Below are positions 1 to 12,861 of a DNA stretch of 44,516 nt, one piece after another. The notes under the pieces are model-generated. The model did not search any database. It was not told the origin of the DNA and worked only from the letters and a program-made list of their open reading frames with translations. Source of the stretch: Methylococcales bacterium (GTDB taxonomy: Bacteria; Pseudomonadota; Gammaproteobacteria; Methylococcales; Methylomonadaceae); NCBI GenBank assembly GCA_003584865.1, contig QVQE01000152.1:1-44516 (forward strand), written 5' to 3'. A program made the position numbers and the translations under genes. The first letter of the stretch is position 1, and each line of letters begins with the position of its first letter.

Positions 1-1
1 A

Positions 2-286
2 TCGAAACAACACATAGCTACGATTAAAGATGCTGCGAAAAAATTAACTGGGGCAACAAGGTGAGAGTTTCAAGCACAGGTGTCTATTGATTATTTGAAC
101 TCAAAATCGCACTTGGCTGAAAAGATATTTGGTTGGGATCGCAAGACGGCTACGTTAACTAGAGTCACCTTGGAATGGGCAAAAACCATGACTTGGAAAG
201 GGGTATGCCCCGTTTTGAAACTGCTGGAAACCACTTACCAAAGCCGGTACGACCTGCAATATCCACCCAATTATCTGCGGTATTGA
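2..286 (+). pseudogene. Transposase N-terminal remnant, broken by a stop
   Basis: Frame 2 reads through AAKKLTGATR, meets a TGA at 62-64, and continues in the same frame with EFQAQVSIDYL and AEKIFGWDRKT. The pattern (KLTG, two basic residues, FQAQ, YL, AE, FGW, R) is what I recall from the N-terminus of one group of DDE transposases. The stop would be a single C-to-T change in an arginine codon. After about base 165 the frame no longer follows that pattern, so only the N-terminal piece is left. The 5' end lies outside the window. The family name is uncertain; that it is a decayed fragment is better supported. Confidence 0.5.
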
Positions 287-347
287 AATGAATGATAAAA
301 TGGCATAGAGAACGGCATTGCTCCACTGAATTTAATAGGAAAATACT

Positions 348-1709
348 ATGCACTTGTTACGCGTTCAAGTCCCTGACTTTAGAGTATTAAAAGATATAGA
401 TATTACCTTTGAGCAAACATTTAATCCTACTGTCTTTCCGCTAGGCAGTCTTAATGGCGGCGGTAAAAGTACGTTGTTACAGCTGATTTTTGTGTTGCTG
501 CATTGTTCAGCGCATAGTGAACGACATCAATTTATTGCCAATATGCTGGAGCGTGTAACAATTCCAGAAGACGAAAATAGCAAGCTGCTGGCTCGATTTG
601 AGTTGATAGACGGTGATGAGAAGATTGAGTTGGAGTTTACTCTTTACAATGATGATTATTTGCGTCAATTGGATATTGATCCTATTTTTAATAAGGAAAT
701 GGTTTCTTTTGGTATCTTTCCTAAAAATGAACGTCTGCTTTCTGATGAAAGATCAGATGCTGAAATCGAACAAGACTTTTATGATGCGAATATAGATTCA
801 GATCCCTCTCTATCTCCACGTGAAAAACAAGCAATGATGAAAGCCTTAGCATCTGGTTTTGATAAATACATGGAGGAAAGAAAAAAATTAATTGCAACAA
901 TTCCACCTTTAGCTAAAAGCATTTATAAAAGCTTAACAATTAGAAAACAACATTACGTTACAAGCTATTCTTGCAATGACAATGCAATAGGGCTTTTATG
1001 TTTTTCTTCAAATGCCAACAAATCGACAAAAGACATAAAAGCTATTCTAACGATACTTTCTAAACAGGTGTTTCTTTCTGCGCCTCCCACACAAATTTAT
1101 TTATTTCTTGATGAATCGACAAAGAAATTGCTTTTTAAAAAACGTGATGTGAAAAGAAATCGTTGGATAGATAACTATGAATCAAGTCTTGATGAAGCTA
1201 AAAACAAATTACCCAACTTCTTAACCTTTGATGTTTTTGCTGTTGATGCCGTTATCTCATCAATTGAACAAGCCCGTAATCAAGACTTTAAATCCTTCGT
1301 CGATACAGGAACTAATGGCACAAGATATCAAAAAATAATGGCAGAACTGAATCTATTAATGCAAGGCAAAAAAGTATTGCCGCAATTGGATGAAAATGCC
1401 GCTATCACCGGAATAGTATTCAAAACCAATGATGACATAGAAATTTATCCAGAAGACTTAAGCCACGGCGAATTAAAACGCTTAAGCATTTATGTCTGGT
1501 TAAAATCATTACCCAAAGGTGAAAACATTGTACTCATGGATGAAATAGAAAATGCCCTACATCCTGATTGGCAATATCAAATCGTCCGCGATTTAGTCGA
1601 GTGGGGTAAAGATAACCAATATATTTTAGCGACACATTCTTACGGACTCTGCGAAGCCCTGACGCCTGCGCATGTCAAAGAACTTGAGCCTAAGCTCATT
1701 CCACATTAA
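348..1709 (+). CDS. AAA/ABC-type ATPase of the OLD/AriA kind
   Basis: A 453-residue SMC/RecF-like ATPase. The Walker A motif GSLNGGGKST is at about 33-42, after an N-terminal strand of the type seen in RecF/OLD proteins. An ABC-like signature LSHGELKRLS lies near 371-380, Walker B with catalytic acid LMDEIENALHP near 396-406, and a switch histidine in ILATHS near 425. The long middle section between Walker A and the signature is a helical insertion. AGGAAA upstream of ATG 348 serves as ribosome site. Only two bases separate its stop from the next gene, so the two are surely cotranslated. An ATPase of this size followed by a TOPRIM-like partner is the layout of PARIS (AriA-AriB) and related anti-phage systems. 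The ATPase call is firm; the defence role is inferred. Confidence 0.8.
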   Translation: MHLLRVQVPDFRVLKDIDITFEQTFNPTVFPLGSLNGGGKSTLLQLIFVLLHCSAHSERHQFIANMLERVTIPEDENSKLLARFELIDGDEKIELEFTLYNDDYLRQLDIDPIFNKEMVSFGIFPKNERLLSDERSDAEIEQDFYDANIDSDPSLSPREKQAMMKALASGFDKYMEERKKLIATIPPLAKSIYKSLTIRKQHYVTSYSCNDNAIGLLCFSSNANKSTKDIKAILTILSKQVFLSAPPTQIYLFLDESTKKLLFKKRDVKRNRWIDNYESSLDEAKNKLPNFLTFDVFAVDAVISSIEQARNQDFKSFVDTGTNGTRYQKIMAELNLLMQGKKVLPQLDENAAITGIVFKTNDDIEIYPEDLSHGELKRLSIYVWLKSLPKGENIVLMDEIENALHPDWQYQIVRDLVEWGKDNQYILATHSYGLCEALTPAHVKELEPKLIPH

Positions 1710-1711
1710 CG

Positions 1712-2659
1712 ATGAGCCTTTCAAATACCGAGTTGCAAGAGCATTGCAACACAATTATCAATTCTCGACGTGCCCAAAATAAAATCGTAATTCTTTGTGA
1801 AGGCAATATACACGCTGATGAAGGCAAAGCTTCACCTTCCAGCTATCGGCAACTAGAAAAACTTCCCGACGCCAATTTTTATAAGGCTTGCATCCCTGTT
1901 TGGTGGAAACAAAAACGCCCTGAATTTTTCATCTGTGGTGATAGACAGGATGTCATCAACACTTATTTTGAATTACAGAAAATGCACTCACAGCCGCGTA
2001 ATGATTCCTACCTGAATAAAGACAAGCTCTTTGCCATCATTGACCTGGATTTGCCGCTGTGCAAATTCGACGATAGTTATCCTATAACAGATAGTGAAGC
2101 CTTGTTTTATAGGCTCTATCAGCAAGGACAAATCAATCAACAGGCCATACTTGAAAAGTCCATTTTTATCACCGGATTAATTTATAAAGAAGCCTATTTC
2201 CTGATTCCCGATTTGCAACCTCTTTTTGATGACTATTCCCCAGTTGTGCATTTCAATAATGTGCCGATCAACCTGAAAGCTGTTTACCGAGAAATGGCGC
2301 ACAAGCTGATTAATGACGGAAATCTTATGCAGCCGGATCAGTTTAAACGTGCTTGTGAAAGAATCCAGCATTGTCAGCAGTTGAATTTTAATAGCCTAAA
2401 CGATTTACAACAAAGCTGGTTAACTGCTTTTGATACAGCCGATAAATCAACACAGCAAATCTTAATTTATGCGACATTGACTATTCATCAAGTTAAAGAT
2501 TATTGGAAAGCTGTTACACCCCATGAGGAAGGCATTATTCCAGCTGAACGCTTTAAAGAACAATTAATCTTAAAAATTGCCGACTTTTATGCGAGACAAG
2601 CACACAACAGCACTCATCACATTCCTGGTTTTTTTAATGCACTGTCAAAATGGGCGTAA
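1712..2659 (+). CDS. TOPRIM/DUF4435-like partner of the ATPase
   Basis: A 315-residue protein starting two bases after the ATPase stop, with no Shine-Dalgarno of its own, so it probably depends on translational coupling. It shows the spaced acidic residues of a TOPRIM-like fold: ILCEG near 27-31 (E30), FFICGDRQDVINTY near 72-85, and FAIIDLDL near 107-114 (D111, D113). This order (E-G, then G-x-x-x-V, then D-x-D) matches what is known of DUF4435/AriB and OLD nuclease domains. The stretch between E30 and the G-D-R motif is longer than I expect for AriB. In PARIS, AriB is released by AriA when a phage trigger is sensed; whether this protein works so is inference. It could be another OLD-like nuclease subunit. 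Confidence 0.55.
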   Translation: MSLSNTELQEHCNTIINSRRAQNKIVILCEGNIHADEGKASPSSYRQLEKLPDANFYKACIPVWWKQKRPEFFICGDRQDVINTYFELQKMHSQPRNDSYLNKDKLFAIIDLDLPLCKFDDSYPITDSEALFYRLYQQGQINQQAILEKSIFITGLIYKEAYFLIPDLQPLFDDYSPVVHFNNVPINLKAVYREMAHKLINDGNLMQPDQFKRACERIQHCQQLNFNSLNDLQQSWLTAFDTADKSTQQILIYATLTIHQVKDYWKAVTPHEEGIIPAERFKEQLILKIADFYARQAHNSTHHIPGFFNALSKWA

Positions 2660-2736
2660 TTTTGGATTAGAATAACTATCCAGTTGAAATTGAATCGTTG
2701 GATTAATATAAAAACATCAACGATCGCTTTCTAAAT

Positions 2737-2772
2737 AGCCCTTCCTTTACCATACTGGCTAAAAGGAGGGCT
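2737..2772. terminator. Bulged hairpin between convergent genes
   Basis: AGCCC...GGGCT pairs, then continues through a one-base bulge into TCCTTT/AAAGGA, between the stop of the TOPRIM-like gene and the stop of the cysteine desulfurase gene. No U tract follows on either strand, so it is at best a weak bidirectional terminator. Confidence 0.3.
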
Positions 2773-2790
2773 AAGAAGCTTCTTCAGATT

Positions 2791-4869
2791 TTAAACGAAT
2801 TGACCACTCTTAATACGTCTTACCGTACTCACCAACAGATCAACTTCCTGATGAGTGTTATAAAACGCTAACGAAGGACGCACCGTACTTTCCAGCCCAA
2901 AACGGCGCAAGATAGGTTGAGCGCAATGATGGCCGGTACGAACGGCAATACCGACTCGATTAAGGGCTACACCAATATCCTGATTACTATGGCCGTCTAA
3001 CACAAATGACAGCACGCTGGTTTTTTCAGCCGCCGTACCTATCAAATGTAAACCGGAGATTCTTCTCAGGGCATCCATGGCATACAGCAATAATTCATGC
3101 TCATAACGGGCAATATTATCGATGCCCACCTTTGATACATATTCAAGCGCAGCACCCAGACCTACCGCATCGGCGATATTACCCGTACCTGCTTCAAAAC
3201 GGGCTGGAGCGGGTTGATAGACAATTTTCTCAAACGTCACATCCTCGATCATATTACCACCACCTTGCCAAGGTGGCATTGACTCGAGCAGGTCAGCTTT
3301 ACCATAGAGTACGCCGATACCTGTCGGGCCAAATATCTTGTGACCCGAAAACACAAACCAGTCACAATCCAGGGCTTGTACATCAGCACGTAAATGCGAA
3401 ACGGATTGAGCACCGTCAAGCAATACCCGAGCACCCACACGATGCGCCATATCGATCATTTCTTTAGCCGGTGTTACTGTTCCCAAGGCATTCGAAACCT
3501 GAGTAAAAGACACCAACTTGGTCTTGGATGTGAGTAGTTTTTGATATTCACCCAACAATACTTGACCCTGATCATCAACCGGTGCTACACGTAACACCGC
3601 ACCCGTTAAATCACACAGCTGTTTCCAAGGTACAATATTAGCGTGATGTTCTAGCCAGGTAATGACTATTTCATCGCCTTTTTTAATATGTTGATGACCC
3701 CAGCTTTGAGCAACCAGATTGATTGCTTCAGTGGTTCCTCTTGCAAACACAACTTCAGATGACGAAGAGGCATTTAAGAAACGCGCCACGATATCGCGAG
3801 CTTTCTCATAAGCATCAGTCGATCTTGCTGCTAATTCATGTGCTGCACGGTGAATATTAGAGTTTTCATGTTCATAAAAATAAGAAACCCTATCAATTAC
3901 CGATTGAGGTTTTTGAGTCGTCGCCGCATTATCAAACCATACCAAAGGATGTCCGTTAACCCGTTCTTTGAGTATCGGAAAATCACGACGAATGGCTTGA
4001 ACATCAAAAGCCGGATGAGCAGAACTTAAGCTGGGTGCCTCTGAATTAAACTCACCCGTTTTAAGTTCATCTAAAAAATAATAAGTAGGTTTGGACTCTG
4101 GATTTAATGGCACCGATCCAGGGGTCGCAAACAGTTTTTTTATTTCTGCTTCGCCCGGTAACCCGTAAGTTTCAGGTGATAAGCCAGCTATTAAAGCAGG
4201 ATCAAAATCGCTCAAACTATTAGGCAATGAGGTTGGAAAAGTTAGATGAGGTTGGTTAACTCTTTCGTTACCGAACAGCTTTTGCAATTCTGCTTCAAAC
4301 GGTTTCTGTAAGCTATTTACCTTATCTATATCAGTTAATGACGCAGGTACCTCAGACGTTGCATCGACAGCGCCGATTCCAGAAGGGTGACTTCCTAAAG
4401 GCACTCGTGAAACTAACATTTGTTGTAATTGCGCTTCATCAGGCAGCCCAAAATTATTCGGTAAAATCCCTTCCAGCACTGACTTATCAAAACTTGATAA
4501 ACTAGAAGCGGTCGTTGGACTATTTAATACGACCCCTGTATCAAGACTGTGTGGCACTTGATTTAGTGAAGGTTGACGTTGCTGAGAAAAAAACGACTTA
4601 AGCTCAGCATCGCCAGGCAGGCTAAAATCCTGAACGCCAGGCGCAGACGATTTATTGACACCTGCTAAAGGTGATATCACTTCGCTTGGCACTGCCGAAG
4701 CAACTAAACCCAGTCTTGACCCATCACAGGGTAGCGCTGTAAATAGCTCATTTGCCAACTTGGTTAATTGCTCAATGTCTGGCAATGATGTATCTTGGGT
4801 AAAACTTTGCGGCGCTGTACTTGAGGGCTCAAAGTTACTTGTATTCATGATACTTGCCCACTTCGACAT
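2791..4869 (-). CDS. Encapsulin cargo: cysteine desulfurase with targeting domain
   Basis: Family 2A encapsulin cargo protein, a SufS-like PLP enzyme that takes sulfur from L-cysteine, giving alanine and an enzyme persulfide. From the start at 4869 it is 692 residues. Residues 1 to about 285 are low-complexity, rich in Ser, Pro and Leu, with five short repeats (see separate entry). The desulfurase domain follows from about 288 (FDVQAIRRDFPIL), with the PLP lysine in FSGHKIFGPTG (K511) and the catalytic cysteine in RTGHHCAQP (C649). The frame is open to 4893; ATG 4869 is chosen because GGAG lies 9 bases upstream, with ATG 4848 as another option. It overlaps the end of the shell gene by 35 bases, so the two are one operon. 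In known family 2A systems the disordered N-terminus directs the enzyme into the shell. Confidence 0.93.
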   Translation of the reverse strand: MSKWASIMNTSNFEPSSTAPQSFTQDTSLPDIEQLTKLANELFTALPCDGSRLGLVASAVPSEVISPLAGVNKSSAPGVQDFSLPGDAELKSFFSQQRQPSLNQVPHSLDTGVVLNSPTTASSLSSFDKSVLEGILPNNFGLPDEAQLQQMLVSRVPLGSHPSGIGAVDATSEVPASLTDIDKVNSLQKPFEAELQKLFGNERVNQPHLTFPTSLPNSLSDFDPALIAGLSPETYGLPGEAEIKKLFATPGSVPLNPESKPTYYFLDELKTGEFNSEAPSLSSAHPAFDVQAIRRDFPILKERVNGHPLVWFDNAATTQKPQSVIDRVSYFYEHENSNIHRAAHELAARSTDAYEKARDIVARFLNASSSSEVVFARGTTEAINLVAQSWGHQHIKKGDEIVITWLEHHANIVPWKQLCDLTGAVLRVAPVDDQGQVLLGEYQKLLTSKTKLVSFTQVSNALGTVTPAKEMIDMAHRVGARVLLDGAQSVSHLRADVQALDCDWFVFSGHKIFGPTGIGVLYGKADLLESMPPWQGGGNMIEDVTFEKIVYQPAPARFEAGTGNIADAVGLGAALEYVSKVGIDNIARYEHELLLYAMDALRRISGLHLIGTAAEKTSVLSFVLDGHSNQDIGVALNRVGIAVRTGHHCAQPILRRFGLESTVRPSLAFYNTHQEVDLLVSTVRRIKSGQFV
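4129..4785 (-). repeat. Five copies of an LPGEAEL-like targeting motif
   Basis: Inside the disordered N-terminus of the cargo, at residues 29-43 (LPDIEQLTKLANELF), 84-94 (LPGDAELKSFF), 142-152 (LPDEAQLQQML), 190-199 (PFEAELQKLF) and 237-247 (LPGEAEIKKLF). The third and fifth copies lie in a longer repeat with an upstream S-x-FD-x-x-x-x-x-G-x-x-P element. The shared pattern is LP-[GD]-x-A-x-[LI]-x-x-[LF]-[FL] with linkers of about 40-50 residues, as expected of several short helices that bind the shell interior. Confidence 0.8.
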
Positions 4870-5752
4870 TCTCGAGGACTCCGAGCGCATCATCAGTCAA
4901 CACAGCCAGCGAGCAATACAGTGAGATCAAGTAAGAAGCAATGGCTTTATGGTTTATACCCATAAAACGAACTGAAAGTCCCATGCTCAATTCCCCAGTC
5001 AGATTGGGCTGATACAAACCAACAACCCCTTGACGACTCTCACCCGTACGTAATAACAAGATATTACTTTTGCCATTAACCACTTTTAATTTATCAGTAG
5101 GAATAATAGGTAAACCACGCCAGGTCATAAATTGTGAACCAAATAAAGTAACAATAGCAGGTGGTACGCCACGACGAGTACATTCACGACCGAATGCTGC
5201 AATAGCTAATGGATGGGCCAGGAAAAATGCAGGTTCTTTCCAGACGCGAGAAATCAACTCATCCATATCATCTGGCGTCGGAGCACCCGTGCGAGGTTGA
5301 ACTCTAAAACCGGGAGCAACATTGTTTAATAAACCGTATTCAGCGTTGTTAATCAATTCACTTTCTTGACGCTCTTTAATGGTTTCAATGGTTAAGCGTA
5401 ATTGTTCATGAATCTGATTATGTGGACTGCTGTATAAATCAGAAATACGGGTATGTACATCTAATACAGTATTAACTGCATTTAAACGGTACTCACGACC
5501 CCATTCTTCATAATCAACAAAGGTTTGTGGAAGTTCTTTTTCGTCAAGGCTTGAGCAGTCTACTAAAAGACCTGCTTCATTCTTAACTTTGTTAACGCGA
5601 TAAATGCCGGCCTCAAGTGGTTTCCATTGCAATAAATGAACCAACCATCTTGGGGTGATGGTTGACAACATTGGGACTGTTTTGGTGGCATTCGCCAGGG
5701 TACGTGCGGCAACATCGCCTAATGCGGTATTTCCTTCATGGATATCAGTCAT
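4835..5752 (-). CDS. srpI: Family 2A encapsulin shell protein (SrpI type)
   Basis: A 305-residue HK97-fold shell protein of the SrpI/family 2A encapsulin group. Recognisable stretches are WLVHLLQWKPLEAGIYRVNK near 36-55, the E-loop region with FVDYEEWGREYRLN near 78-91, and AIAAFGRECTRRGVPPAIV near 183-201. It is preceded by AGGAAA ten bases before ATG 5752. The cargo desulfurase gene follows with overlap, the usual shell-cargo pairing. No cyclic-nucleotide-binding domain is present, which separates it from family 2B. In characterised members the shell assembles as a T=1 icosahedron and is linked to sulfur limitation or sulfur storage. The promoter and leader upstream are shared with the cysK operon, which supports a sulfur-controlled role. 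Confidence 0.95.
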   Translation of the reverse strand: MTDIHEGNTALGDVAARTLANATKTVPMLSTITPRWLVHLLQWKPLEAGIYRVNKVKNEAGLLVDCSSLDEKELPQTFVDYEEWGREYRLNAVNTVLDVHTRISDLYSSPHNQIHEQLRLTIETIKERQESELINNAEYGLLNNVAPGFRVQPRTGAPTPDDMDELISRVWKEPAFFLAHPLAIAAFGRECTRRGVPPAIVTLFGSQFMTWRGLPIIPTDKLKVVNGKSNILLLRTGESRQGVVGLYQPNLTGELSMGLSVRFMGINHKAIASYLISLYCSLAVLTDDALGVLENVEVGKYHEYK

Positions 5753-5816
5753 GGTAGTTTCCTATTACGGGTTAAAAATTTATGGTGGGTTTGTTTTATT
5801 AATTATTATTTTTTCC

Positions 5817-10170: not shown

Positions 10171-12861
10171 TTATTGAATAAATAGCTGATTCGTCATTGT
10201 TGCAGTACACACGTTATAACTCGACAAAGGTGTTGCCGCCACTGTGTTAAGTGCTATACTTTTTGGCGTAGATAACGTTAAGTCCTCGTACGCACCAAAA
10301 GGATCGCTAGTGGGAGATGCTAACTTGTAGTACATAAACAAATCATTACCACAACCTATTGCATCCGCTAACTCCGCCTGCACAACCTGATTAATTCGAA
10401 CATCGCTTTCAGCCGACTCAACGATAGCCTGATTGGTTCTATTAACCGTCAGGTCAGGACCACCTTCATACATCAGGGTTTTGAGTCCATAATAATTAGC
10501 CAGACTTTTGAATTTAGCACCATAGTCAATCCCACCGTGGTATAAAGACAACCCCGAAAAGCCCGGTAGTATGAGGTTTATACCCGTTTGTAGCGAAGCA
10601 AACAAACCTGCTATATCAGTATAAGCGGTCTGAGGTGAAAAATAAGGCGCACCGCCGATGCCGTACAGATATTGACTAGGCGCTCCAAAATTCGCATTTA
10701 GATACTTGAGTGAGTCCTCAGTATAGTATGGCTGTACATATTGAGACATATAAACAGGTCTGATCGTATTATTAATAGCCGATGAACCAAAAACACCCGC
10801 AAACAATTGACTTATTTTTAAGGTTTGATGGGCTGCTCTTCGGTATCCCCAATACCACTGGTTATTTATATTATCGTAATTTAGGGTCGGATCAGCGCCG
10901 GAACTGACATCGGCTACTGCTGCTGCGGTAAGATTATGGGTTTGAGAAAACATTCCGTTCCACAATTCATTACTGTACTCCACATAAACATGGATACCAG
11001 GTTTTAGCGTCTTCTTAATCAAGGTTGCTAACTGAACAACATAGTTATTAGCTGTCATATCATTTAAATTGACCTGATCAGGAATATTAATCCAGACATC
11101 TTTACCTGATGCATTAGCAAGCTGAATAACATATTCCCAGGCAATACCCAGTGAACCTTGTTGAGTCGGATCAGTGACCGACTTTCGAGTCGCCCAACCC
11201 GTTGCCGGATTAGAATTTGTTCCCAGCGCCTCCATCATACGAATGGTACTAAAGGGTGCGATTGCGTTTAAAATCTCAGAAGTAAATACTTGGCTAGTGC
11301 CATTAGCGTAACCAGGACGCAATAACTTTAAATTTTGAACGCCATTTGTGGTATTCAAAAATACAAGCGCAACTTGTTGATCGGTTGGTTGTACAATCAC
11401 ATCAGCCGTCGTGGTGTTGGTTGCAGAATTATAAACCTGGTTTTTAACTAACCCAAAGTTGTAGCCCCTTACAGTTGCCTGACCTGTAAAACTTAGTTTA
11501 TAAGTCCCAAACATGCTTGGATACGTAGTGTTCAAAGGACGCGCTAAAGGGTCGCCAGGGTTGGTAATAAAATACACGCCAAAATCCGTTGTTGGCCATC
11601 CATTAGCATCCAAAGGTACTGGACAGTTTACAGGATCCCATGGGCACTTTAAGGATGCAAAACCTCGTGCCTGCTTCATCACATCAATAAAGGTGAGTTG
11701 TCTATCACCCCAATCGTTGACATACCCAATATTAATACCCATCTTAGAACCCGCATTAACGACAGAAGAGGTCGTCGTAATCGTTGCATTTTGGGTTACA
11801 GTGCTGCCATCCAAACCTGCGCAGGTCAATGTGTAAATGGTTGCACTATTTAAGGCTGGAGTGGTAAAAGTGCCTGATAATGCTTCAGCGCCTCTCCATC
11901 CTCCAGCGCCTACACAAGAGCTTGTACTGGTTGATAGCCACGTTAACACAGAAGTCGAACCCATCGCTATCGAAGAGGAACTGGCACTGAATGTCAGTGT
12001 GGGAGGCAATGGATGACCACCCACGGTAACAGATGCTGATTGGGCAACGGTGGACTTACCATCCAAACCTGTACATGTCAGTATAAAAACAGCTGAACTG
12101 GGCAAAGCCGCAGTAGTAAAAGTACCTGACAATGCTTGGGAACCTGTCCAGGTTCCGGATGCCAGACAGGACACCGTATTCGTTGATGACCACGATAATA
12201 CCGAAGTTGCTCCCACTGCTATTGAAGCCGGGCTAGTCGTCAAAGTTAAAGTCGGTGCTGGTGGCGCTGCAACTGAAATCCTAGTCGTTTGAGCTACTGT
12301 TGTTTTTCCATCCAAACCTGTACAAGTCAGCGTATGGTCGGTTGCAGTAGTCAAAACGGGTGTGGTAAAGGTACCGGATACAGGTTTTGAACCTGTCCAT
12401 CCCCCCGACGCTATACAAGATTTCGTATTCGCTGATGACCACGTTAATGCAGCCGTTGCATGGTAGGCTATTGAAGCTGGGCTAGGCTGCAAGGTTAAGG
12501 TCGGTGGTGGTGGTGCAACGGTAACACTAGCCGTTTTGGCTACTGTTGTTTTTCCATCCAAACCCGTACAAGTCAGTGTATAAACAGTTGTAGTGGTCAA
12601 TACTGGCGTGGTAAAGGTGCCTGATACAGGCTTTGAACCTGTCCATCCCCCTGACGCTACACAAGATGTCGTATTCGCTGATGACCATGATAATACAGAC
12701 GCCGCATTATAGGCTATTGACGCGGGACTAGCTGAAATAGCTATCGTTGGCAGAGGTATAACAACCGCTGCAACTTTTGTTGACGTTACCGCATAGGAGG
12801 AATTTATCCATAGCGTAATAAAGCCAAAGAGTAAAAAACCAGGTATATTTTGTGTTTTCAT
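10171..12861 (-). CDS. Secreted protein: four Ig-like repeats plus GH-like domain
   Basis: An 896-residue exported protein with a signal peptide (about 1-24, ending SSYA). Residues 39-362 are four Ig-like repeats of about 80 residues, each with a Cys pair (67/98, 149/180, 232/263, 316/347) and the signature LSWSS...SC...GGWTGS...SGTFTTP...YTLTCTGLDG. From about 372 a single domain starts at MGINIGYVNDWGD and includes VYVEYSNELWNG near 625-636. The Asn-Glu pair after a strand recalls the acid/base site of clan A glycoside hydrolases; such proteins are often named cellulose- or carbohydrate-binding. Substrate and activity are not established. The repeats likely hold the domain away from the cell surface. 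Confidence 0.75.
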   Translation of the reverse strand: MKTQNIPGFLLFGFITLWINSSYAVTSTKVAAVVIPLPTIAISASPASIAYNAASVLSWSSANTTSCVASGGWTGSKPVSGTFTTPVLTTTTVYTLTCTGLDGKTTVAKTASVTVAPPPPTLTLQPSPASIAYHATAALTWSSANTKSCIASGGWTGSKPVSGTFTTPVLTTATDHTLTCTGLDGKTTVAQTTRISVAAPPAPTLTLTTSPASIAVGATSVLSWSSTNTVSCLASGTWTGSQALSGTFTTAALPSSAVFILTCTGLDGKSTVAQSASVTVGGHPLPPTLTFSASSSSIAMGSTSVLTWLSTSTSSCVGAGGWRGAEALSGTFTTPALNSATIYTLTCAGLDGSTVTQNATITTTSSVVNAGSKMGINIGYVNDWGDRQLTFIDVMKQARGFASLKCPWDPVNCPVPLDANGWPTTDFGVYFITNPGDPLARPLNTTYPSMFGTYKLSFTGQATVRGYNFGLVKNQVYNSATNTTTADVIVQPTDQQVALVFLNTTNGVQNLKLLRPGYANGTSQVFTSEILNAIAPFSTIRMMEALGTNSNPATGWATRKSVTDPTQQGSLGIAWEYVIQLANASGKDVWINIPDQVNLNDMTANNYVVQLATLIKKTLKPGIHVYVEYSNELWNGMFSQTHNLTAAAVADVSSGADPTLNYDNINNQWYWGYRRAAHQTLKISQLFAGVFGSSAINNTIRPVYMSQYVQPYYTEDSLKYLNANFGAPSQYLYGIGGAPYFSPQTAYTDIAGLFASLQTGINLILPGFSGLSLYHGGIDYGAKFKSLANYYGLKTLMYEGGPDLTVNRTNQAIVESAESDVRINQVVQAELADAIGCGNDLFMYYKLASPTSDPFGAYEDLTLSTPKSIALNTVAATPLSSYNVCTATMTNQLFIQ
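11776..12747 (-). repeat. Four tandem Ig-like repeat units in the secreted protein gene
   Basis: Repeat units encode residues 39-115, 120-197, 203-280 and 287-362. The first two are nearly identical in places (WSSANT, SGGWTGSKPVSGTFTTPVLTT), also at DNA level, pointing to recent duplication; the last is the most diverged. Confidence 0.85.

Follow-up and report, generated by a model that had tools for sequence, protein, structure and literature searches.

PARIS is marked by sensing of Ocr-type triggers, an AriA hexamer and tRNA cleavage: AriA holds AriB, and in response to a phage anti-restriction protein AriB cleaves tRNA-Lys (PMC11455837; PMC12409363). According to the latter, a 2025 paper on AriB, the mechanism of AriB activation remains to be elucidated. 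The published rule for PARIS (PMC9122126) asks for an ATPase scoring at least 32 bits to AAA_15 or at least 27 bits to AAA_21, adjacent or fused to a protein scoring at least 27 bits to DUF4435 (PF14491). The two-gene kind made of an OLD ATPase and a TOPRIM protein has as a whole already been described (PMC10568477 and PMC12839542). We describe here a gene pair, A and B, from a Methylococcales bacterium that looks like a variant of this kind, apparently PARIS-like in its working. It lies in the window, by which we mean the whole stretch of 44,516 nucleotides that was analyzed (assembly GCA_003584865.1, contig QVQE01000152.1); the source genome is 2.5 Mb long and 75% complete.

Set against the PARIS rule, A scores 61.4 bits to AAA_15 and 62.8 bits to AAA_21, both also above the Pfam cut-offs, and the genes are adjacent, 2 bp apart. 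None of 11 members of the B family reaches the DUF4435 (PF14491) threshold, the single match having an E value of 0.077, and neither B nor its 11 aligned relatives match the PADLOC AriB models. DUF4435 genes elsewhere in the order clear the cut-off in 7 of 101 genomes. Because B fails the published rule, the pair was not filed as PARIS. A variant rather than standard PARIS is what the first-pass annotation had suggested, and the comparison agrees: A clears the ATPase thresholds, B fails on DUF4435, and B carries a longer insert. The PADLOC search that it had proposed gave AriA as the best model for A (2.3e-20) and no model for B.

Architecture of the pair and its surroundings

The features discussed below are as follows.

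2..283, + strand: remnant of an ISAzo13-type transposase, internally deleted, lying ahead of A (comparison with ORFs of the loci L030 and L181; Pfam)
348..1709, + strand: gene A, AriA/OLD-like ABC ATPase, 453 aa (ORF; Pfam and PADLOC; aligned A proteins)
546..1391, + strand: center of A (roughly residues 67-348), its most variable segment in protein sequence and the proposed trigger-recognition segment (segment identities; synonymous differences)
1712..2659, + strand: gene B, probable TOPRIM-type nuclease, 315 aa, with invariant E30, D53, D111, D113 and E160 (ORF; alignments and profile comparison)
1802..1867, + strand: insert of B between the motif-1 Glu (E30) and D53 (family alignment; DUF4435 comparison)
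2791-4893, - strand: class-V aminotransferase family gene, 700 aa, the next gene downstream of B (Pfam)
4835-5752, - strand: type 2A encapsulin shell gene, SrpI-like (PF19307, 3.3e-104)

Both open reading frames of the pair were found on the + strand, the stop of A preceding the start of B by 2 bp. The OLD/AriA-like ATPase named at first pass is borne out by the Pfam scores and by AriA as top PADLOC model, with PtuA models close behind (2.5e-19). We take residues 36-42 (NGGGKST) to be the Walker A motif, 371-375 (LSHGE) the signature, 394-401 (IVLMDEIE) Walker B, and H430 the H-loop; the key residues of all four are invariant across nine aligned A proteins, including that of the window. Pfam found no nuclease domain fused to A. 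In PDB searches, A alone matched PtuA chains, and a nine-protein A profile reached chains of PtuA, retron ATPases and AriA, the best of them at 1.5e-8. A 12-protein A profile matched an ATPase ORF in 16 of 23 DUF4435 loci (E values of 4.5e-15 to 3e-5) and, weakly (about 1e-4), in 2 of 30 RloB loci; each locus was screened with 1.5 kb on either side, which may truncate some of the ATPase genes. The variable center of A is a candidate sensor surface for a phage trigger.

Searched alone, B returned nothing below an E value of 0.1 in Pfam, PADLOC, NCBIfam or PDB. Among 14 full-length B proteins, the sole invariant acidic residues are E30, D53, D111, D113 and E160, and their order is that of the DUF4435/TOPRIM motif. 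As first aligned, seven DUF4435 proteins have five invariant acids (E34, D38, D90, D92 and E118), of which only three (in seven proteins) or four (in 13 proteins) remain invariant on realignment. Compared profile with profile, 11 B proteins and seven DUF4435 proteins of the same order gave a P value of 2e-5 and a probability of 77%; 14 B proteins against the same seven gave 1.9e-4 and 48%, and against 13 DUF4435 proteins 1.4e-4 and 53%, with a score of 38.6. None of 150 column-shuffled controls attained the score between B and DUF4435 (best P value, 0.043; best score, 21.3), and the DUF4435 profile outscored all 79 single-sequence decoy proteins run against the B profile. In these alignments the motif-1 Glu is matched by E30, the second acid by D53 and the D-x-D by D111/D113. 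The last Glu (E160, in TGLIYKEAYFL against ENYLL) falls outside every profile alignment and was matched by eye. The TOPRIM/DUF4435-like acidic pattern claimed at first pass thus stands for five invariant acids in the right order, four of them profile-aligned, and less firmly for the fifth. On this basis B is probably a TOPRIM-type protein.

Single DUF4435 proteins behaved unevenly against the B profile. D50 aligns over the motifs (P = 0.001) and puts the noninvariant E49 on the motif-1 Glu, in which case the insert would precede that Glu rather than follow it; D59 aligns over motif 1 only (P = 0.0085), the alignment of D56 falls off the motifs, and D57, D49, D53 and D52 gave no signal (P = 0.15 to 0.33). 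AlphaFold models of B had mean pLDDT values of 44 (full length, three alignment rows) and 38 (residues 1-175 alone), too low to assign a fold. The claim of a long insert after the first Glu holds in 14 of 14 full-length members, in which 21 to 24 residues separate the motif-1 Glu from the next conserved Asp, versus 4 in six DUF4435 proteins and 3 in the seventh. The distance from the D-x-D to the last Glu is 46 to 47 residues in B proteins versus 23 to 38 in DUF4435 proteins. Against the RloB profile, B aligned over 16 columns (P = 0.003), so that of the two partner families compared DUF4435 fits B better.

Scans with single members of the 11-protein set gave DUF4435 in one (E = 0.077) and AbiLii in one (0.016). 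Other weak matches were LuxT_C in five of the 11 (best, 0.011; a region outside the motifs) and, in one each, DUF6308 (0.0019) and the PADLOC model RT_UG10 (0.0003). PDB profile matches of B, mostly labeled toxin B, were dismissed as chance (E values of 0.27 or worse), and a reading of its IDLDL as a nucleotidyltransferase motif was dropped on motif spacing. Near the C terminus of B, outside the TOPRIM motifs, an SxHHxPxFF sequence (residues 300-308; window positions 2609-2635) is invariant in 11 aligned B proteins and is kept only in part in L132, the copy of G736.

The transposase remnant is real. Window positions 2-283 are 97% identical to a 98-aa ORF of L030, with one TGA inside the window copy; that ORF consists of two parts, which correspond to noncontiguous portions of one 401-aa ORF in L181 (Pfam DDE_Tnp_ISAZ013, 3.4e-73), and this makes the remnant an internally deleted fragment. 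The genome has seven matches to the ISAzo13-type transposase, that of the window included. For the idea of a mobile locus, the remnant is confirmed and its role as the mover of the pair is unsupported, as pieces of the same transposase are scattered through the genome. The window fragment and short ISAzo13-type fragments on four other contigs of this genome, G000 (C49, C81, C112 and C130), may be nonautonomous elements. Elsewhere, an integrase core ORF (rve_3, 2.2e-10; L133:2-325, genome G050) lies upstream of a C-terminal remnant of B, and a transposase-type ORF, lacking a Pfam match, is suspected by reading in L018; a nonsystematic reading of ORF lists recognized no transposase beside the other copies. 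The same kind of reading recognized no defense genes around the window copy.

The 700-aa aminotransferase has a long N-terminal stretch that, as we take it, resembles the tail of an encapsulin-cargo cysteine desulfurase. Farther along the window, positions 10171-12861 (- strand) encode an 896-aa protein with internal repeats, and comparison with L030 shows self-similar blocks around 12059-12737. An RloB-family gene elsewhere in the genome (L155; G000:C129:733-1323; 127 bits) possibly belongs to another ATPase-partner system.

Distribution and the pqqB-pqqC interval

A B profile found 18 positive genomes among 311 of the order, and a single-protein search found 16 among 201 of the family; in two relatives B is 97 to 100% identical to that of the window. 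Fourteen of the 18 have a full-length B and four a broken or cut one: G194 is split, G152 is cut at a contig start, and G050 and G088 hold C-terminal remnants. Among 398 genomes of the phylum, the profile found the window and one weak match (G606; 2.9e-4, with stops), which on reading showed no A and no clear B and was left out of the counts. A search with A among 274 genomes of the class (E value of 1e-10) returned the genome of the window and G736, of another family, in which a full-length B follows the A. No relatives of B were found among plasmids, phages and viral contigs and none of A among viral contigs; a plasmid search with A gave one match, covering 36% of the protein.

A lies directly upstream of B in all 15 full-length cases (the 14 and G736), the A of G188 being truncated by a contig end. 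The two-gene unit seen at first pass is thereby confirmed, with both ORFs in place 2 bp apart. Six genera of the family carry the pair, as does one genome from a different gammaproteobacterial family, and omega for B is 0.17 to 0.48 in six of the seven pairs compared, the seventh being saturated (estimates without a formal test); for these reasons A and B are a unit beyond chance. The distribution of the pair is patchy and decaying. The first-pass annotation had named conserved core genes outside islands as the finding that would tell against it; this is not what was seen, as 18 of the order's 311 genomes have B, which is broken or cut in four of them.

The relatives sit among core genes, mostly those of the pqq operon, and not in classical defense islands. 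The pqq operon makes the cofactor of methanol oxidation. In 9 of 18 genomes the pair or a remnant adjoins pqqC (L022, L023, L024, L025, L027, L028, L029, L016 and L018), and pqqB is visible on the other side in five of the nine (L022, L024, L025, L027 and L028); in the remaining four, the contig or fetched stretch stops before the position of pqqB. The pqqC label rests on a Pfam TENA/THI-4/PQQC match and relatives, and pqqB is presumed from its sequence and place, Pfam giving Lactamase_B_2. Also between pqqB and pqqC, beside the pair, are a Uma2-type gene (L025, L027 and L028) or a 509-aa ORF (L022). Uma2-type genes beside the pair were assigned by Pfam in L028 and L023 and by reading in L025 and L027, and that of L028 matches the PADLOC candidate PDC-S03 at 2e-26. 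In L018, a B remnant adjoins an uninterrupted pqqC. Copies elsewhere lie beside encapsulin genes (the window, L030 and L031), beside fae (L021) or at other sites.

Of 201 family genomes, 189 have pqqC. The region upstream of it was surveyed in 130 of the 189 (30 returned loci and 100 picked from the search list), a set that excludes seven genomes with the pair at pqqC and includes two (G120 and G115). Both pqq genes were seen in 111 loci; the gap between them is at most 150 bp in 100 loci, 151 to 400 bp in two and above 400 bp in nine. The 19 loci without pqqB in the stretch comprise 2 that carry the pair, 2 that are too short and 15 others. The 11 wider gaps hold Uma2 genes alone in four (L096, L125, L216 and L240; tblastn); DUF302 genes in three (one by Pfam, two by likeness); the defense candidate PDC-M02A/B in G026 (L120:322-2003; PADLOC, 2e-71 and 1.1e-133); a GIY-YIG-like gene just under the Pfam cut-off in L236; and a DUF1878 gene with one gene of no known family in L248. 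One, of 152 bp, is empty. Together with the pair, these contents indicate that the pqqB-pqqC interval accepts accessory cargo, defense candidates included. The interval may be a defense insertion site in methanotrophs, a role not mentioned in the titles and abstract openings of the open-licence papers among the matches listed.

Exchange between A and B

Residues 239-349 of A fall into two types that are 29 to 39% identical to each other: alpha (the window, L023, L025, L027, L029, L034 and L036; 53 to 87% identical) and beta (L020, L021, L022, L024 and L028; 52 to 76% identical). The A of L132 (G736) belongs to neither (28 to 37%). Type II of B consists of L027, L028 and L029, which are 58 to 61% identical and share 32 to 39% with type I rows; the B of L132 shares 35 to 42% with all rows. 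Each of the four possible pairings of an A type with a B type was found, and the pqqC-adjacent copies by themselves include all four.

Trees of A and B were computed after the types had been named. Beta rows form one clade both in residues 239-349 of A (support, 97/94) and in its core (95/93), and type II rows form one clade in the tree of B (100/100). B rejects a constraint placing the beta rows together (AU p = 2.9e-17); type II rows together are rejected by residues 239-349 of A (AU p = 3.7e-56) and, with L029 left out, by the core of A (AU p = 0.002). This conflict between the trees indicates that A and B have been re-paired.

Core and segment 239-349 of A divide the copies into the same two types. 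Between L034 and L036, pS runs 0.05, 0.53, 0.64 and 0.05 along A and is 0.07 in B, the pattern expected if the center of A alone was exchanged. The jump is weaker between the window and L034 (0.35, 0.56, 0.61 and 0.26 along A; 0.31 in B), is not clear in the other five of seven pairs, and is absent or reversed in L023-L025 and L022-L028. We are thus less sure that the center has been swapped apart from A's own core, which is clear at synonymous sites in one of seven pairs, L034-L036, whose mosaic could be a chimeric assembly because both copies lie on short metagenome-assembled genome (MAG) contigs (3.8 and 3.3 kb).

The unit seems to move between species. Window positions 1-3200 differ from G184 at nine positions, and positions 3200-5800 differ by up to 27% per 200 bases; the comparison with G142 is patchier, with identical stretches also in the encapsulin region.

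Proposed function and relation to known systems

We consider it likely that the pair is a PARIS-like anti-phage unit in which an ATPase sensor and keeper is joined to a metal-dependent TOPRIM nuclease that stops the infected cell. This reading draws on the unit itself, its strict pairing, the intact ATPase motifs, the five acids, the patchy decay, the pqq site and the exchange between A and B. By analogy with PARIS, A should act as sensor and keeper, with B as the effector nuclease. A, an ABC ATPase, would hold B in check and would use its variable central segment to detect a phage product; B would then be freed or activated, would cleave nucleic acid at a metal-dependent TOPRIM site formed by E30, D53, D111, D113 and E160, and would thereby stop the infected cell (abortive infection). 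As a tentative first guess, the substrate may be tRNA, as for AriB.

How far the pair stands from PARIS is open to more than one reading. It could be a divergent PARIS (AriAB) subtype whose B is an AriB/DUF4435 protein too far drifted for the HMM cut-off to catch, its trigger class and its tRNA target unchanged, as the ATPase score of A, the profile link between B and DUF4435 and the identical gene order would suggest; we find this rather unlikely, given that B falls short on DUF4435 in all 11 members scanned, has longer spacings at two places and, with its 11 aligned relatives, lacks an AriB model match, whereas other DUF4435 genes of the order pass the cut-off (7 of 101 genomes). A separate ATPase-TOPRIM lineage, with a split metal motif, free re-pairing, an exchangeable center cassette and spread by homologous recombination in the conserved flanks pqqB and pqqC, is possible if somewhat doubtful: the re-pairing follows from the tree conflict and the cassette exchange mainly from one pair, and we infer the route of spread.

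Readings that depart further fare less well. The low pLDDT of the fold models (44 and 38) and the modest DUF4435 profile probabilities (48 to 77%) would suit a B that is not TOPRIM at all but another effector with convergent acids, perhaps a nucleotidyltransferase or some different D-x-D enzyme, with an AriA-like ATPase driving it; OLD-type ATPases with non-TOPRIM nucleases are reported in a survey of BREX neighborhoods (PMC12839542). Such a B is improbable in view of the four invariant acids of five that lie in register with the DUF4435 profile, the 150 shuffles that never attain its score and the absence of PDB profile matches better than an E value of 0.27. Location could also be function, the pair serving methylotrophy or PQQ regulation and not defense, since 9 of 18 copies adjoin pqqC and one (L021) lies beside fae, the gene of the formaldehyde-activating enzyme. 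We judge this very improbable: in samples of 201 family genomes taken alike, 189 have pqqC and 16 have B, the pqqB-pqqC gap is 150 bp or less in 100 of the 111 loci with both genes seen, L018 keeps a B remnant beside an uninterrupted pqqC, and the interval also houses Uma2, DUF302 and PDC-M02 genes.

The DUF4435 and PADLOC AriB models overlook the A-B family, so ATPase-TOPRIM defenses are probably undercounted. If the central segment of A reads the trigger, it offers a testable handle on phage sensing by such ATPases.

Gabija combines GajA, a fused ATPase-TOPRIM protein, with the UvrD-like helicase GajB, and Septu has the HNH protein PtuB as partner of its ATPase. Like OLD class 1 and GajA (class 2), the pair would have an ABC ATPase working with a TOPRIM nuclease, but here the ATPase and its partner are separate proteins. 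A has no nuclease domain match, the gene that follows lies on the opposite strand and belongs to the class-V aminotransferase family, and reading the ORF lists revealed no GajB-type helicase next to the pair. With Septu and retron-Septu it shares an ATPase that matches PtuA models (2.5e-19) and PtuA PDB chains; B, in contrast, matches no PADLOC model and no Pfam HNH family, PtuB included. AbiL and RloA-RloB likewise join an ATPase to a small protein whose motif-1 strand (CEG) is similar, but the alignment of B with the RloB profile covers 16 columns (P = 0.003), RloB (PF13707) has no match in B or 11 family members, and the A profile is weak in 2 of 30 RloB loci. From PARIS the pair differs in a B that matches neither PF14491 nor AriB, in spacings of 21 to 24 versus 3 to 4 residues and 46 to 47 versus 23 to 38, and in its range as found to date, which comprises 18 of the 311 order genomes and a single genome from another family. 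It resembles PARIS in its adjacent genes, the first encoding an ABC ATPase without a fused nuclease and the second a partner whose acids follow the TOPRIM-type order.
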